A stretch of DNA of 64,000 bases from Exiguobacterium sp. s124 (GTDB lineage Bacteria; Bacillota; Bacilli; Exiguobacteriales; Exiguobacteriaceae), in assembly GCF_018617485.1 (NCBI RefSeq), contig NZ_JACSKH010000001.1, forward strand, positions 930,001-994,000, read 5' to 3'. Positions 49,372 through 55,189 of the stretch are shown here, in pieces. Under the pieces are notes generated by a model. The model made no database searches and had not been told where the DNA came from. It worked only from the letters and a program-made list of their open reading frames with translations. Position 1 is the stretch's first letter, and the number at the start of each line of letters is the position of its first letter. The position numbers were made by a program, and so were the translations under genes.

Positions 49372-49380
49372 GATTAGTGG

Positions 49381-49415
49381 TAAAGAACAACAGTGCTGTT
49401 GTTCTTTATTTTTTT
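49381..49415 (+). terminator. Terminator of the pst operon
   Basis: TAAAGAACAACAG (49381-49393) and CTGTTGTTCTTTA (49396-49408) form a 13-bp stem around TG, then seven T. Confidence 0.88.
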
Positions 49416-49487
49416 GGGCAGGAATTCATAAAGAATGAGCGAATACTAGTCTACATGGATTTTTTACATGAAGGGAGCCATACAGAG

Positions 49488-50240
49488 ATGGAAGAGAAAA
49501 TCGTATCCTTGAAGCAACAAGGACTTACGTTGAAACAGATTGCGGCAGAACTAGACGTCCCGATTGGCAAAGTCCAATACGCATGGCGAAAATGGAGAAA
49601 TCAGCAACAAGAGTTGGAGGAAGTTGTCCCTGTGAAACAAAAGAGTAATAAGAAAGCTAAAGCTAAAGCGTCGGGATCAACTTCGCGTAAACAAGTCGCA
49701 TCAGCAAAAGAGACGGTTGATGTGAAACGTTCTCCACTCCTTGAAAAGAGTCCTGAAGGTTATTGGCAATTGCCAGAACGATATAACGTAGACTTCTTGC
49801 ATGCGGTCGTTCAATCACCGAACTCAGTATATGTGTGCTGGGAAGTGTCTGACTTAGTGAAAGAAACGTTAGAGCTCCAGTTTATGAGACGATGGGAAGA
49901 GCTACCGAAAGCGTTCCGTATCTTAGATGTGACCTTGCTCGATTACGCGAGTGGTCACGCGAATCGTTCGTATACGTTCGATCTCCCTGAAATGACGAAC
50001 AGTTGGTTCGTTCGACCTCTCGATCCGAATACGACCTACGTGTTTGAGTTCGGGATTCGCACGATGGAGGGAGAATTTTTACCAATTGTGGCATCGGCAC
50101 CACTTGATACACCACGTGCAGAACCAGTTGGTATCGGACGCTTCGCGGAGCCAGTGAGACGTTGGCAGTACGGAGAAGTTGAATCTCCAGAGTTGTTAGA
50201 TACATTACCAAAATATGCGGCATACCGTCACGTACGTTAA
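49488..50240 (+). CDS. DUF4912 protein with N-terminal HTH-like segment
   Basis: A 250-residue protein. Residues 1-40 (IVSLKQQGLTLKQIAAELD, then VPIGKVQYAWRKWR) look like a helix-turn-helix resembling resolvase/MerR-style recognition helices. A Lys/Ala-rich linker (about 45-80) leads to a DUF4912 domain (about 95-240; LPERYNVDFLHAVVQSPNSV, YVCWEVS, RSYTFDLPE, WFVRPLDPNTTYVFEFG) that looks beta-rich, perhaps carbohydrate-binding. DUF4912 genes often lie next to GH57/DUF1957 genes. ATG 49488 follows AAGGGAG at 49471-49477. The GH57 gene starts 14 bases later. Confidence 0.85.
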   Translation: MEEKIVSLKQQGLTLKQIAAELDVPIGKVQYAWRKWRNQQQELEEVVPVKQKSNKKAKAKASGSTSRKQVASAKETVDVKRSPLLEKSPEGYWQLPERYNVDFLHAVVQSPNSVYVCWEVSDLVKETLELQFMRRWEELPKAFRILDVTLLDYASGHANRSYTFDLPEMTNSWFVRPLDPNTTYVFEFGIRTMEGEFLPIVASAPLDTPRAEPVGIGRFAEPVRRWQYGEVESPELLDTLPKYAAYRHVR

Positions 50241-50254
50241 GGAGGACTTTCTAC

Positions 50255-52456
50255 ATGAAACCAGGATACTTTTCACTCGTCCTTCATGCTCATTTACCGT
50301 ACGTTAGGCATGAAGAGAAGCATCGTTTAGAAGAAAGATGGGTGTACGAAGCCATCTCAGAAACATATATTCCAATCCTTTGGCAAGTTGATCGCTTGAA
50401 GCGTCCGTTGCATTGGACAGTTAGTATTTCACCACCTGTTGTAGAAATGCTCGCGGACCCGCTCATCCAAGATCGATACGTCGAACACTTAGATGAGATG
50501 CTTGAGTTGATCGCGTTAGAGCTCTCTGAAGGGAGAACGGATGAAGAGATATCAACGTTACATTTCTATGAGCAACGTTATCGTGATTTGAAAAATACGT
50601 TCCTTCATTGGAATAAAAACTTGAATGTAGCGTTCCGTACATATCGAGAAGCGGGTTATATTGACATGGTGACTTGTACAGCGACCCATGGTTTCAACCC
50701 CCACCTCTTTACGGAACAGGCAGCTCGTGCTGAAATTCGGACAGGTCTTAACTGCTTCGAACGTCACTATGGGTTCCGTCCGACCGGCATTTGGTTGCCT
50801 GAGTGTGCCTACACGCCAGGTGTAGACAGAATCCTGTATGAAGAAGGGATTCGATACACATTTGTCGACGAACATGCATTGCTCGATGCGGATCCAACTC
50901 CAGAGAAGGGCATTGGAGCTCCCGTCTATTCTCCACACGGAGTCGCATTGTTCCCGAGAGATCAAATCATTTCGGGTAAAATTTGGAGTTCGATGATTGG
51001 ATATCCGGGTCACCCTGATTATCGTGAATTCTATCGAGATTTGGCCTACGACCGAGATTGGGATTATATCCAATCGTTCATGCATCCGGAAGGCATTCGA
51101 TTCGACACAGGATTAAAAATGCACCGCATCACAGGTGACACCGATCAAAAAGACTTCTATGTACGTGAGTGGGCTGAACATCAAATTGAGAATCATGCGA
51201 CAGACTTCGCACAAACGTTAGAGGGCCATCTCGAGGCCCATGGAGGTCAAACGTTCCCGCCGTTCTTGGTGACGGCACCGTTTGATGCAGAATTGTTTGG
51301 TCATTGGTGGTTTGAAGGTCCTGAATTTCTCGGGAAGGTCGCAGAGCGACTCGAGGAATTTGGAATCGAAACGATCACGCCGGCGATCTTCCTAGAGCGT
51401 CACTTCAAAGATTTACAAACCGTCCATGTTTCCATGAACACATGGGGACGAAAAGGCTACGGTGAAGTGTGGATCAATGAACGGAATGAATGGATGCTCC
51501 GTCATCTTCATATGATGGAAATGCAGCTTGTCAAAGACGTAGCCGATTATCGTGATCAGTCTGATTTGACGAATCGTGCCTTAAAGCAATTGATTCGCCA
51601 TTATGTGTTAGCTGTATCAAGTGACTGGGCGTTTATCTTAGATGGTCAAACGACGGCACAATATGCGGCTGAGCGCTTCCGTGAGCATACACGCCTCTTT
51701 GCCGAACTTGAGACGGTGCTTTATCAAGGTGGGGTATCAAGTGAACTGCTCGATGATCATTATGCGGCGTACCCATTCCTACAAGACGAAGACCTTGATG
51801 TCGATTCATTCCTGTCTCCTCACGATTATTATGTGACGACTGAGCGGGATGTAGAAGATCCGGCAATTCTCATGATCACACCGGAATATCACGGTCATAT
51901 CGTCGGTGGACTTGGGCATCGTGTCGTCGAGGAAGTAGAGGCGAGAGCGAATGAGGGAGAAACCGTCTATGTGTTGACACCGTATCACGATGAGTTGCCG
52001 GAATACGAACGACATGGAAACGTTCATGTATATCGGGTCCGTCCGACTAGCCCATTTTTAGAGCACGTCATGAATCAGGTCGCCACACAAAATATTGCGT
52101 ATGTAAAACTCGTTCATGAACTTTCAAAACGAGTATCGTTCAAAGTGATTCATCATTTTGATTGGATGACGATTCCTGCTGCAAGAGAACTTGCGCAATC
52201 CCTTGCGCTTCCGTTATACTCAACTATGTTGTCCTTTGAAGCGACACGTAACCCGCACGGTCATGGTGGTTTGTTCGATGCGATCCATCGAATTGAAAAC
52301 AGTGTGTTCTCTGCAGCGGAGTGCGTATATGTCGGCGAAGAGCTCTCGATGCATGACCTAGAACAATGGTATAAGGTAAGCGAGAATGTCAACACATGCC
52401 TACCCCTTGAAACTTCTCCATATGGACAGGAATCAATGAAAAAGAACGTGAAATAA
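50255..52456 (+). CDS. GH57 (DUF1957) branching-enzyme-like protein fused to half a glycosyltransferase
   Basis: A 733-residue fusion. Residues 1-520 are a GH57/DUF1957 1,4-alpha-glucan branching-enzyme-like domain: start FSLVLHAHLPYV, nucleophile E183 in GIWLPECAY, acid/base D344 in APFDAELFGHWWFEG, and the helical C-domain (WGRKGYGEVWINERNEWMLR). Residues about 536-725 resemble the N-terminal Rossmann domain of GT4/GT5 glycogen-synthase-type transferases (ITPEYHGHIVGGLGHRVVEE). The protein ends where a GT C-terminal nucleotide-sugar domain would start. Cotranscribed with the DUF4912 gene. Role in glycogen-like alpha-glucan is inferred. Confidence 0.85.
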   Translation: MKPGYFSLVLHAHLPYVRHEEKHRLEERWVYEAISETYIPILWQVDRLKRPLHWTVSISPPVVEMLADPLIQDRYVEHLDEMLELIALELSEGRTDEEISTLHFYEQRYRDLKNTFLHWNKNLNVAFRTYREAGYIDMVTCTATHGFNPHLFTEQAARAEIRTGLNCFERHYGFRPTGIWLPECAYTPGVDRILYEEGIRYTFVDEHALLDADPTPEKGIGAPVYSPHGVALFPRDQIISGKIWSSMIGYPGHPDYREFYRDLAYDRDWDYIQSFMHPEGIRFDTGLKMHRITGDTDQKDFYVREWAEHQIENHATDFAQTLEGHLEAHGGQTFPPFLVTAPFDAELFGHWWFEGPEFLGKVAERLEEFGIETITPAIFLERHFKDLQTVHVSMNTWGRKGYGEVWINERNEWMLRHLHMMEMQLVKDVADYRDQSDLTNRALKQLIRHYVLAVSSDWAFILDGQTTAQYAAERFREHTRLFAELETVLYQGGVSSELLDDHYAAYPFLQDEDLDVDSFLSPHDYYVTTERDVEDPAILMITPEYHGHIVGGLGHRVVEEVEARANEGETVYVLTPYHDELPEYERHGNVHVYRVRPTSPFLEHVMNQVATQNIAYVKLVHELSKRVSFKVIHHFDWMTIPAARELAQSLALPLYSTMLSFEATRNPHGHGGLFDAIHRIENSVFSAAECVYVGEELSMHDLEQWYKVSENVNTCLPLETSPYGQESMKKNVK

Positions 52457-52458
52457 TC

Positions 52459-52487
52459 TTGCTTTTTCACAAGAAACTTGGTAGGAT
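52459..52487 (+). promoter_or_regulatory. Candidate promoter of rpmG
   Basis: TTGCTT at 52459-52464 and TAGGAT at 52482-52487 with a 17-base spacer, starting 3 bases after the GH57 stop codon. Confidence 0.4.
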
Positions 52488-52555
52488 AATTGAGTATGCT
52501 TAGACTGTAAAGCAAAAGCACTTGATACAACATCATTAAGATGGGAGTGAAAGAA

Positions 52556-52705
52556 ATGCGCGTTAAAATTACATTAGCTTGCACAGAAACAGGCGATCGC
52601 ACGTACATCACGAAGAAAAACAAACGTAACAACCCTGAGCGCCTTGAGTTGCGCAAATACAACCCACGTCTCCGTCGTCACACGCTTTACCGCGAAGTGA
52701 AGTAA
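52556..52705 (+). CDS. rpmG: 50S ribosomal protein L33, cysteine-poor form
   Basis: A 49-residue large-subunit protein ([20 protein letters not shown]...[16 protein letters not shown]). The CxxC pairs of zinc-binding L33 are absent: only one Cys remains (CTETG) and the second pair is NPRL. This form does not need zinc. GGGAG precedes the ATG at 52556. Too short for usual ORF cut-offs but unmistakable. Confidence 0.95.
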
Positions 52706-52712
52706 TAAGGGA

Positions 52713-52743
52713 CCGGCCGTCACATATGTGGCGGCTTTTTTTG
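52713..52743 (+). terminator. Terminator after rpmG
   Basis: GGCCGTCACAT pairs with ATGTGGCGGC (one G-U pair) and is followed by seven T. Confidence 0.8.
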
Positions 52744-52759
52744 TAAGGAGGAATGCGTT

Positions 52760-53314
52760 GTGGAAGAAAAAGCAGCGTTAAGACAGACCGTCCATCAATC
52801 CATTAAACAAATCAATAATCGACCACATGTCGATCAATCCATCCATCAACGGTTGTTCTCGACAGATATATGGAAGGAAAGCCAGACAATTGCGTTGACC
52901 TCTTCACTTCCGCTCGAAATTGATACGTCCCCAATCATTCATGAGGCGTTTGAAGCAGGAAAAACGGTGTGCGTCCCGAAAGTAACGGGGCAAGGGTTGA
53001 CGTTTCATATCATTCATTCTGTGAATGATCTCGAGACAGGTGTCATGAATATTTTGGAGCCGACCACTCCACCGACGACTCAAGCAATCGACTTATGTCT
53101 TGTACCGGGAAGGGTATTTGACCGATCGGGATACCGTATTGGTTGGGGTGGAGGATATTATGACCGCTTTTTACGTACATATGAAGGGGTAACGGTTTCG
53201 TTAGCGTATTCCGTTCAACTTGTCGATCAAGTGCCGACAGAACCACACGATCTTCCTGTGCAGTGGATTGTGACAGAAAAGGAGATGATTCAATGTTCGC
53301 CATATTTGTTGTAA
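52760..53314 (+). CDS. fthC: 5-formyltetrahydrofolate cyclo-ligase
   Basis: Converts 5-formyl-THF to 5,10-methenyl-THF with ATP (YqgN in B. subtilis). It is 184 residues, with PGRVFDRSGYRIGWGGGYYDRF as the ligase signature in the C-terminal half and KVTG near the middle. GTG 52760 lies 7 bases after AAGGAGG. Its end overlaps the start of the DUF92 gene by 22 bases. Confidence 0.93.
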   Translation: MEEKAALRQTVHQSIKQINNRPHVDQSIHQRLFSTDIWKESQTIALTSSLPLEIDTSPIIHEAFEAGKTVCVPKVTGQGLTFHIIHSVNDLETGVMNILEPTTPPTTQAIDLCLVPGRVFDRSGYRIGWGGGYYDRFLRTYEGVTVSLAYSVQLVDQVPTEPHDLPVQWIVTEKEMIQCSPYLL

Positions 53315-54063
53315 CTTGTATCGTCGCCTTTCTCGGATATCGGTTGCGCTCCTTAACGCTCTCAGGAGCAATCTTGACGGTGATAACAGGGGTATTGATT
53401 GGACTGTCGTTTGGGTGGTTCGGACTTTATTTACTCGGCGTCTTCTTCTCGACGTCTTCTCTCGCATCAAAATATCGATCTCGCGATAAAGTAAGTGTGG
53501 ATGAAATCGTCGAGAAAACGGGGGCTCGAGACGCCATCCAAGTGTTAGCCAATGGAGGGGTAGGGATACTTTGTGCCCTCGGTTATTTGCTGACGGACGA
53601 TGTTGTCTATCTATACATGTACATCGTGTCCATTGCAGCAGCGACGAGTGACACGTGGGGATCTGAATTCGGTGTCCTCGCAAAACGTAAACCTCGGTTC
53701 ATGTTCTCGTTCAGGGAAGTTGAGCCGGGAACGAGTGGCGCTGTCTCAACATTTGGAACGGTCATGTCGGTATTAGGCGCATTTATGATTGTCTGCTCAT
53801 CTCTTTTGTTTGTCGAATTAGACTTGGCATTACTATTGGCACTTTGGGGAATCGGACTAAGTGGAAGCGTCATCGACACATTGCTCGGTGCAACAGTACA
53901 ACGAAAGTTTCGCTGTACGGTGTGTGGGAAGTTGACCGAGAAGAACATTCATCATCAAGTTCCGACAACATATGTGTCGGGATGGCGAGTTTTTGGAAAC
54001 GATGCAGTCAATTTTTTGTCCGTATTTGGAGCGGCGATGATTTGTTTTTTCGTGTTCGGATGA
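53293..54063 (+). CDS. DUF92 membrane protein (TMEM19/VTE6-like)
   Basis: A polytopic membrane protein of 256 residues with six to seven TM helices (first about 1-20). The DUF92 signature includes GLSFGWFGLYLLG, SSLASKYR, QVLANGGVG and AAATSDTWGSEFG. Plant VTE6 of this family is a phytyl-phosphate kinase; the bacterial role is not known. ATG 53293 follows GGAGATGA inside the end of fthC. Confidence 0.87.
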   Translation: MFAIFVVTCIVAFLGYRLRSLTLSGAILTVITGVLIGLSFGWFGLYLLGVFFSTSSLASKYRSRDKVSVDEIVEKTGARDAIQVLANGGVGILCALGYLLTDDVVYLYMYIVSIAAATSDTWGSEFGVLAKRKPRFMFSFREVEPGTSGAVSTFGTVMSVLGAFMIVCSSLLFVELDLALLLALWGIGLSGSVIDTLLGATVQRKFRCTVCGKLTEKNIHHQVPTTYVSGWRVFGNDAVNFLSVFGAAMICFFVFG

Positions 54064-54125
54064 AAATAGTACAGGAAATGAAGATGTTTCAAATGAATGT
54101 GAAAGTTGTCACAATATTGCCAAAG

Positions 54126-54139
54126 TGAAAACGGTTTCC
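54126..54139 (+). promoter_or_regulatory. cre-like CcpA site upstream of ldh
   Basis: TGAAAACGGTTTCC matches TGWAANCGNTNWCA at 13 of 14 positions, about 25 bases upstream of the first Rex-like site. CcpA control of ldh is plausible. Confidence 0.6.
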
Positions 54140-54153
54140 GCTGTAGTTAGGGT

Positions 54154-54194
54154 TTGTGAATGATGTTACAATCTTGTTGTAACAGAGATAACAA
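54154..54194 (+). promoter_or_regulatory. Two tandem Rex-like operators upstream of ldh
   Basis: TTGTGAATGATGTTACAA (54154-54171) and TTGTAACAGAGATAACAA (54177-54194), 23 bases apart, resemble TTGTGAANNNNTTCACAA with 12 and 10 of 14 fixed positions. A candidate -10 TACAAT (54167-54172) lies within the first. Between them GTTACAA-N5-TTGTAAC is a perfect inverted repeat. NADH-dependent repression by Rex is inferred. Confidence 0.6.
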
Positions 54195-54232
54195 ATACAT
54201 GAAACAGATTGTTCGAAGGGTGGAGAAACAAT

Positions 54233-55189
54233 ATGGAAACATTAAATCATGCTAAAGTAACGCGCGTTGCACTCGTAGGGGCAGGGGCAGTTGGAGCGAG
54301 CTTCGCATACCAGTTAACGACAGCAAGTCTTTGTGAAGAGCTTGTCATCATTGACATCAACAAGGCAAAAGCAGAAGGGGAAGCGATGGACTTGAACCAC
54401 GGTGTCTCGTTCGCATCTTCACCAATGCGTGTTTGGGCAGGAGACTACGCAGACTGTGGTGTAGCAGATATCGTCGTCATTACTGCAGGTGCACCACAAC
54501 GTCCAGGGGAGACTCGTCTTGACCTCGTTGAAAAAAATGCGAAGATCATGAAATCGATGATTTCAGACATTATGGATTCTGGCTTTGATGGTATCATCAT
54601 TATTGCCTCAAACCCAGTCGACATTATGACACATTTGGCATGGAAATATTCTGGACTTCCGAAGCATCGCGTCTTCGGATCCGGTACAGTGCTCGATACG
54701 TCTCGTTTACGTTACATGCTCGGCGATTATTTCAACGTCGACCCACGCAACTGTCATGCCTACATCATGGGTGAACATGGTGACACCGAGTTCGCTGCAT
54801 GGAGCAATGCCCGAATTTACGGGAAGTCTGTTGAACAGTTGCTTGAAGAGCATGATGAATATAACTGGCAAGACCTTGAGGACATTTATGTGAACGTACG
54901 TGATGCGGCTTATCACATCATCGAACGTAAAGGTGCGACATACTATGCTATCGGACTCGGATTACTTCGCCTTGTCAAAGCGGTTCTTCGTAACGAAAAC
55001 ACGTTGTTGACAGTCGGTGCTCACCTCGATGGGGAATACGGATTACACGATATTCATATCGGGGTACCGGCCATCATCAACCGTCAAGGTGTGCGTGAAG
55101 TCGTTGAGATTGAATTGTCAGAAGAAGAGCATCAAAAAATGCAACATTCTGCGAATGTCCTCATGAAAACGATGGAGCCTGTCTTGTAA
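54233..55189 (+). CDS. ldh: L-lactate dehydrogenase
   Basis: NAD-dependent reduction of pyruvate to L-lactate in fermentation. It is 318 residues: Rossmann motif GAGAVGAS 16-23, substrate Arg region [12 protein letters not shown], catalytic His in [12 protein letters not shown] 54233 follows AAGGGTGGAG. The upstream region carries Rex-like and cre-like sites. Confidence 0.96.

Follow-up and report, generated by a model that had tools for sequence, protein, structure and literature searches.

The GH57 enzyme of solved structure that lies closest to the protein described here is PDB 2b5d, which we take to be AmyC (TmGBE57) of Thermotoga maritima. It is the best solved match of residues 5-500 (E 1.5e-117) and it likewise lacks the insert with the loop tyrosine of PDB 3n8t, but it has 528 amino acids and no glycosyltransferase (GT) part. 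In mycobacteria a GH57 protein, Rv3031, presumably pairs with the GT4-type elongating enzyme Rv3032; the two are separate complete proteins and are likened to the present case by description, not by sequence. Rv3032 is described as an alpha-1,4-glucan elongating enzyme in the accessible text of PMC6686919.

Several known glycosyltransferases share the N-domain fold of the GT part (Z 19.3-21.2): the glycogen synthase of Pyrococcus abyssi (2bis, 3l01), mycobacterial GlgM (6tvp) and MshA (3c4q). Unlike the half considered here, they are complete two-domain enzymes. The N domain of sucrose-phosphate synthase (6ldq), matched in the same Z range, is also a lone N-terminal GT-B half that folds, but it is a laboratory construct and not a natural protein.

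Natural fusions of a GH57 enzyme with a GT occur in Bacilli and Clostridia, for example in Halalkalibacter oceani (L021) and Moorella mulderi (L098). These proteins resemble ours in the GH57 domain with BE_C, in the position of the linker and in the N-terminal GT half, and their genes also have a DUF4912 gene upstream. They differ in the C-terminal half (PF00534) with its EPFGIVALE motif, which is found in 16 of 16 full-length fusions tested. No description of a GH57-GT fusion or of its truncation was found in the literature searched, which is sparse in subscription papers and gives weak evidence on this point, and no biochemical study of the full-length fusions was found among the literature matches listed. 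The words glycosyltransferase, GT4, GT5 and fused are absent from the main text of a GH57 subfamily survey (PMC6037648) in its accessible form. The accessible text of PMC13233415 reports GH57 for 186 of 187 Exiguobacterium strains, describing it as starch-degrading.

The gene studied here comes from Exiguobacterium sp. s124 (order Exiguobacteriales, class Bacilli). The window is the whole stretch of DNA that was analysed, 64,000 nucleotides long (positions 930,001 to 994,000 of contig NZ_JACSKH010000001.1). Coordinates within it are given in Table 1.

Results

Gene order around the GH57 gene is pstA-pstB-phoU-DUF4912-GH57-rpmG-5-formyltetrahydrofolate cyclo-ligase, with the neighbours named by matches over NCBIfam cut-offs and DUF4912 by Pfam.

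Table 1. Positions of the features in the window
Feature	Position	Strand	Basis
DUF4912 gene, directly upstream of the GH57 gene	49377..50240	+	PF16258
GH57 gene with half GT-B, 733 aa	50255..52456	+	Open reading frame; orthologues in 38/38 genomes of the order
GH57 catalytic domain, residues 8-316	50276..51202	+	Best stretch in Pfam
Proposed nucleophile E183	50801-50803	+	Kept in 38/38
Proposed acid/base D344 (motif PFDAELFGHWW)	51284..51286	+	Kept in 38/38
BE_C, residues 417-511	51503..51787	+	PF09210, E 1.3e-19
Half GT-B, N-terminal Rossmann domain, residues 536-705	51860..52369	+	Pfam, fold model, signature-column loss, omega 0.061
C-terminal tail, residues 706-733	52370..52453	+	Poorly conserved, largely low-confidence
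rpmG (ribosomal protein L33), next gene downstream	52556..52705	+	TIGR01023, over cut-off

The enzyme part of the protein is a member of a known family. Its GH57 domain matches PF03065 (E 4e-47) and is followed, after the barrel, by BE_C with 70.9 bits against a cut-off of 25. The catalytic Glu and Asp are intact in all 38 genomes of the order; from general knowledge of GH57 we take E183 to be the nucleophile and, on the same footing, D344 to be the acid/base. No NCBIfam model is over its cut-off for this protein, including the equivalog models NF041133 (291.8 of 1000 bits) and NF041566 (259.5 of 920), which are named for Thermococcales and Thermus. The alignment has an 11-residue gap against 3n8t, and no such gap against 2b5d, at the flexible loop with what we take to be the loop tyrosine. 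This places the protein in the loop-less group and not outside the family, as 92% of GH57 branching enzymes lack the loop and strands according to the accessible text of PMC10346327. The same source reports weak branching in vitro and more alpha-1,4 transfers for loop-less enzymes, which weighs against a branching role of the present protein.

Beyond the enzyme part, only N-terminal GT-B families of Pfam match, as proposed in a preliminary description that let an N-terminal GT-B Rossmann domain begin at about residue 536; codon 536 indeed starts at the position given there, 51860. Glyco_trans_4_4 matches residues 551-706 (E 1.6e-6) with 28.9 bits, just below the cut-off of 29.7, and passes it with 31.8 bits in a scan restricted to residues 528-733. 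Glyco_transf_4 at 550-709 and Glyco_transf_5 at 538-636 also match, and the family profile of the half matches GlgA and GlgM. Residues 528-733 are predicted to fold alone (pLDDT 84, pTM 0.83, with the last approximately 16 residues at low confidence), compared with pLDDT 85.7 and pTM 0.74 for the model of the whole protein. The half-domain model reaches Z 21.2 among GT-B N domains (MshA), which goes beyond a chance resemblance, and the upper matches listed in its PDB search are GT-B-type glycosyltransferases.

No C-terminal GT family of Pfam matched the 733-residue protein at E <=1, and the stop codon aligns with the hinge between both Rossmann domains of full-length relatives. The protein thus ends where the donor-binding domain should start, as first suggested. 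The further suggestion that no remnant is left ahead of rpmG agrees with a tblastn search of window positions 52301-54300 with the C halves of 16 full-length relatives, where hits before rpmG had E >=3; the best hit (E 0.039) lies past rpmG at about 53.5 kb, and nothing credible was found downstream. A displaced C half was also sought elsewhere in the genome, and none was seen among eight PF00534 matches and six matches to the C half of a relative. Judged by sequence membership, the half is not a glycosyltransferase, since it lacks the C domain and has lost most of the cleft motifs.

The stop is conserved. All 38 genomes of the order, from two genera with 19 genomes apiece, have a single GH57 copy, and the protein ends at 726-733 amino acids in all of them when starts are set by alignment to the window protein. 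Lengths in the first genus are 726 (one protein), 727 (four) and 733 (14), and in the second 727 (18) and 729 (one). Upstream of the common end there is no stop or frameshift in any of the 38 genomes. An internal TGA was flagged in five genomes, but these stops come after residue 726 or 727 and there is no readthrough into GT sequence. In Exiguobacterium sp. s122, the homologue (L020) is 85% identical, has 727 amino acids and lies in the same gene order. The preliminary description was therefore right to consider the gene truncated, but the truncation is an old event in the order and not a defect of this copy.

Full-length GH57-GT proteins, which had been proposed as a search target, are common outside the order. 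A sample of 398 Bacilli genomes, with E limits of 1e-30, 1e-80 and 1e-100 and at most two or three candidates scored per genome, held a GH57 gene in 114, namely the 38 of the order and 76 others. In 74 of these 76 the open frame has 882-1127 amino acids, long enough for a full GT, a count that is based on frame length with some of the frames aligned. Both GT halves were found by Pfam in all three GH57-GT4-type proteins scanned (L021, L024, L098); in L021, PF13439 is at 552-725 and PF00534 at 737-896. Among 79 further homologue loci (L021-L099), 67 proteins have 522-583 amino acids and 12 have 885-1049, with none between. Across the Bacilli sample and these loci, the half-GT form was found in the order of the window alone.

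Some frames outside the order are irregular, among them the two of the 76 that are shorter (G050 and G052). In G050 the GH57 frame has 613 amino acids and the GT goes on in another frame, and in G077 the GH57-GT frame of 884 amino acids is frameshifted inside the C half; both fusions (L130 and L138, respectively) are thus broken within the GT part, by sequencing error or a real break. In G052 the GH57 frame has 514 amino acids and no GT part, and a GT gene adjoins on the opposite strand (L131:5561-6727, minus); the GH57 part groups with fused proteins in the tree, on a long branch. A MAG of Terriglobia (Acidobacteriota) has GH57-BE_C fused to a GT5 enzyme of starch-synthase type (L090:3992-7138; PF08323, E 5.3e-78), which is probably separate from the GT4-like fusion of Bacilli.

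A tree of the GH57 part was built from 12 of the 39 truncated proteins and 43 other rows. The 12 truncated proteins form one clade (100/100), nested in a clade of 20 together with eight fused Bacilli proteins (100/98), with an arbitrary root. Downstream of the GH57 gene, rpmG is found in the loci of the order. When 14 relatives outside the order were compared, phoU was upstream in six and rpmG downstream in five, while rpmG was not found in the available flank of the other nine; two relatives (L135 and L052) have both. The distance from the end of the GH57 gene to rpmG is 0.1 kb in the window but approximately 3.0 kb in L021, 3.2 kb in L024, 3.2 kb in L133, 0.9 kb in L135 and 1.2 kb in L052. 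This difference makes an ancestral deletion likely, and a single one that ran from the GT-B hinge almost to rpmG before the two genera diverged is the likely mechanism. By the same synteny, the tail is the probable region of the deletion junction.

The remaining half has lost many residues. A column was counted as conserved when 15 or more of the 16 full-length proteins agreed in it (L130 and L138, which are frameshifted, the very divergent L132 and the GT5 fusion L090 were left out), and as kept when 17 or more of a genus's 19 proteins had it. The first genus has kept 20 and the second 11 of the 54 conserved columns in the N-terminal GT domain, compared with 96 and 95 of 103 in GH57 and BE_C. 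In all 38 genomes Phe replaces the second His of HAHDW and Gln replaces the Trp at the column of residue 608; changes common to all of them fit a loss of function before the genera split. The GGL loop is deleted in all 19 proteins of the second genus and partly retained in the first, where the second Gly is found in eight of 19, including the window. In the window copy GGL is present, EHGRN is represented by its Glu, Arg and Asn, and HAHDW reads HHFDW. Erosion of the cleft is incomplete, given this partial GGL and the retention in 38 of 38 of H633 (the first His of HAHDW), E662 and R665 (the Glu and Arg of EHGRN).

Substitution rates show both relaxation and constraint. Mean dN in the N-terminal GT domain and in GH57 is 0.365 and 0.410 in eight full-length relatives (ratio 0.9), compared with 0.145 and 0.049, and 0.179 and 0.061, in the two genera of the order (ratios of approximately 3.0 and 2.9). 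Pooled omega, a counting estimate without a codon model from 13 independent pairs with dS 0.05-0.8 and each sequence used once, is 0.061 for the half (95% 0.048-0.076) and 0.022 for the enzyme part (0.0185-0.026). Medians of omega were taken in a separate comparison, from pairs with dS 0.05-1 only. By these estimates the half is under strong purifying selection and is not decaying freely; since the enzyme part has an omega only about a third as high, some of the signal is relaxation. Conservation is spread across several strands and helices of the half, with no nameable interface.

A DUF4912 gene immediately precedes the GH57 gene, in the same orientation, in all 38 genomes of the order and in eight of nine other Bacilli examined. 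In 79 homologue loci from many phyla, it does so in 65 and was not found in 11, with too little flank in two. One locus has DUF4912 and GH57 fused in a single protein (L067:2357-5575). The DUF4912 protein is a likely functional partner of GH57 enzymes of branching type.

GlgA (TIGR02095), of GT5 type, is over its cut-off in all 38 genomes of the order and GH13 GlgB (TIGR01515) in none, with a best score of 73 bits against 464. The genome of the window has a cluster glgC-glgD-glgA-glgP, each over its curated cut-off and without glgB; a phosphohexomutase gene comes next, with no match over a cut-off. The other 360 Bacilli comprise 123 genomes with GlgA and GlgB without GH57, seven with all three, 67 with GH57 alone, 161 with none, two with GlgA and GH57 without GlgB (G130, G311) and none with GlgA alone. 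All 40 sampled Bacilli with GlgA but without GlgB thus carry a GH57 gene; 38 of them are one clade, so these are at most three independent cases. From this distribution, branching in the order is probably the task of the GH57 protein, as partner of GlgA. The GH57-GT frame is still full-length in G130 and G311, and loss of the GT is therefore not a necessary consequence of having GlgA without GlgB. G311 is the best-scoring genome outside the order, and its combination of GlgA with an intact GH57-GT is a plausible earlier state.

Discussion

We propose that the ancestor of the order carried a GH57-GT4/5 fusion, as most GH57-positive Bacilli do today, and that the fused chain would probably have been alpha-glucan synthase and branching enzyme at once. 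With GlgA present the fused GT would be dispensable, because in a GlgC-GlgD-GlgA-GlgP pathway that lacks GlgB elongation can be left to GlgA and only the GH57 half is indispensable. A deletion from the GT hinge to just upstream of rpmG would then have taken out the nucleotide-sugar-binding half. The leftover N-terminal Rossmann domain would have seen much of its cleft erode while its fold remained under constraint, and may persist because the branching enzyme uses it, without catalysis, for structure or docking, be it for stability, oligomer formation or the binding of a partner. We give this reading, with fusion, deletion enabled by GlgA and retention of the half, a probability of about 60%. 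It is a tentative further step that the half was co-opted as a docking or regulatory module through which the only branching enzyme contacts GlgA, the DUF4912 protein or, in an oligomer, further copies of itself.

The preliminary description considered a glucan acceptor-binding module, which would tether the branching enzyme to glycogen. In GT-B enzymes the acceptor side is generally the N domain (accessible text of PMC10937113), and purifying selection together with the few cleft columns left, among them the three residues common to all 38 genomes, would suit such a module. Yet most signature columns are gone, including the second His of HAHDW throughout the order and the GGL loop throughout the second genus. 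Because many of the lost residues are signatures of the GT cleft, this idea found no support and we regard it as improbable, although another surface of the half may bind glucan. It is similarly doubtful that the half is a leftover without a role, which does little harm or causes misfolding if disturbed. Its rate relative to GH57, about three times that in full-length relatives, and its poorly conserved tail are what such a leftover would show, but the low omega, the steady length of 726-733 amino acids and the intact frame in every genome argue for constraint. The variant in which disturbance misfolds the protein moreover comes close to the structural reading.

Pairing in trans with the C-terminal half of another protein, as a split glycosyltransferase, is conceivable since engineered GT-B halves from two enzymes assemble in trans (accessible text of PMC10937113). 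This is very unlikely here: the N half has lost cleft residues, and the eight PF00534 matches and six C-half matches in the genome are all in open frames of 366-503 amino acids, with no stand-alone C half. The idea that this copy was truncated recently, is a pseudogene or owes its stop to a sequencing error can practically be dismissed. The full domain in relatives was to speak for such an origin, and relatives outside the order do carry it, but neither a recent event nor an error follows from this; the stop is common to 38 genomes in two genera, which contradicts an assembly error as well, and the window has no downstream remnant.

Conclusions

The GH57 protein of Exiguobacteriales is a clear natural case of a two-domain GT-B enzyme that has been halved and kept, and intact relatives, some at the same locus, allow direct comparison with the half. 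If the half does have a docking or regulatory role, it would amount to a pseudo-glycosyltransferase half that acquired a new function in protein interaction and was maintained throughout a bacterial order. The protein also suggests which enzyme forms the branches in an order where glycogen synthase is present and GH13 GlgB is missing. Outside the order, GH57-GT fusions may be self-contained glucan synthase and branching enzymes in Bacilli without GlgA, and the 67 of 360 genomes with GH57 but neither GlgA nor GlgB may make alpha-glucan by the fused protein alone.
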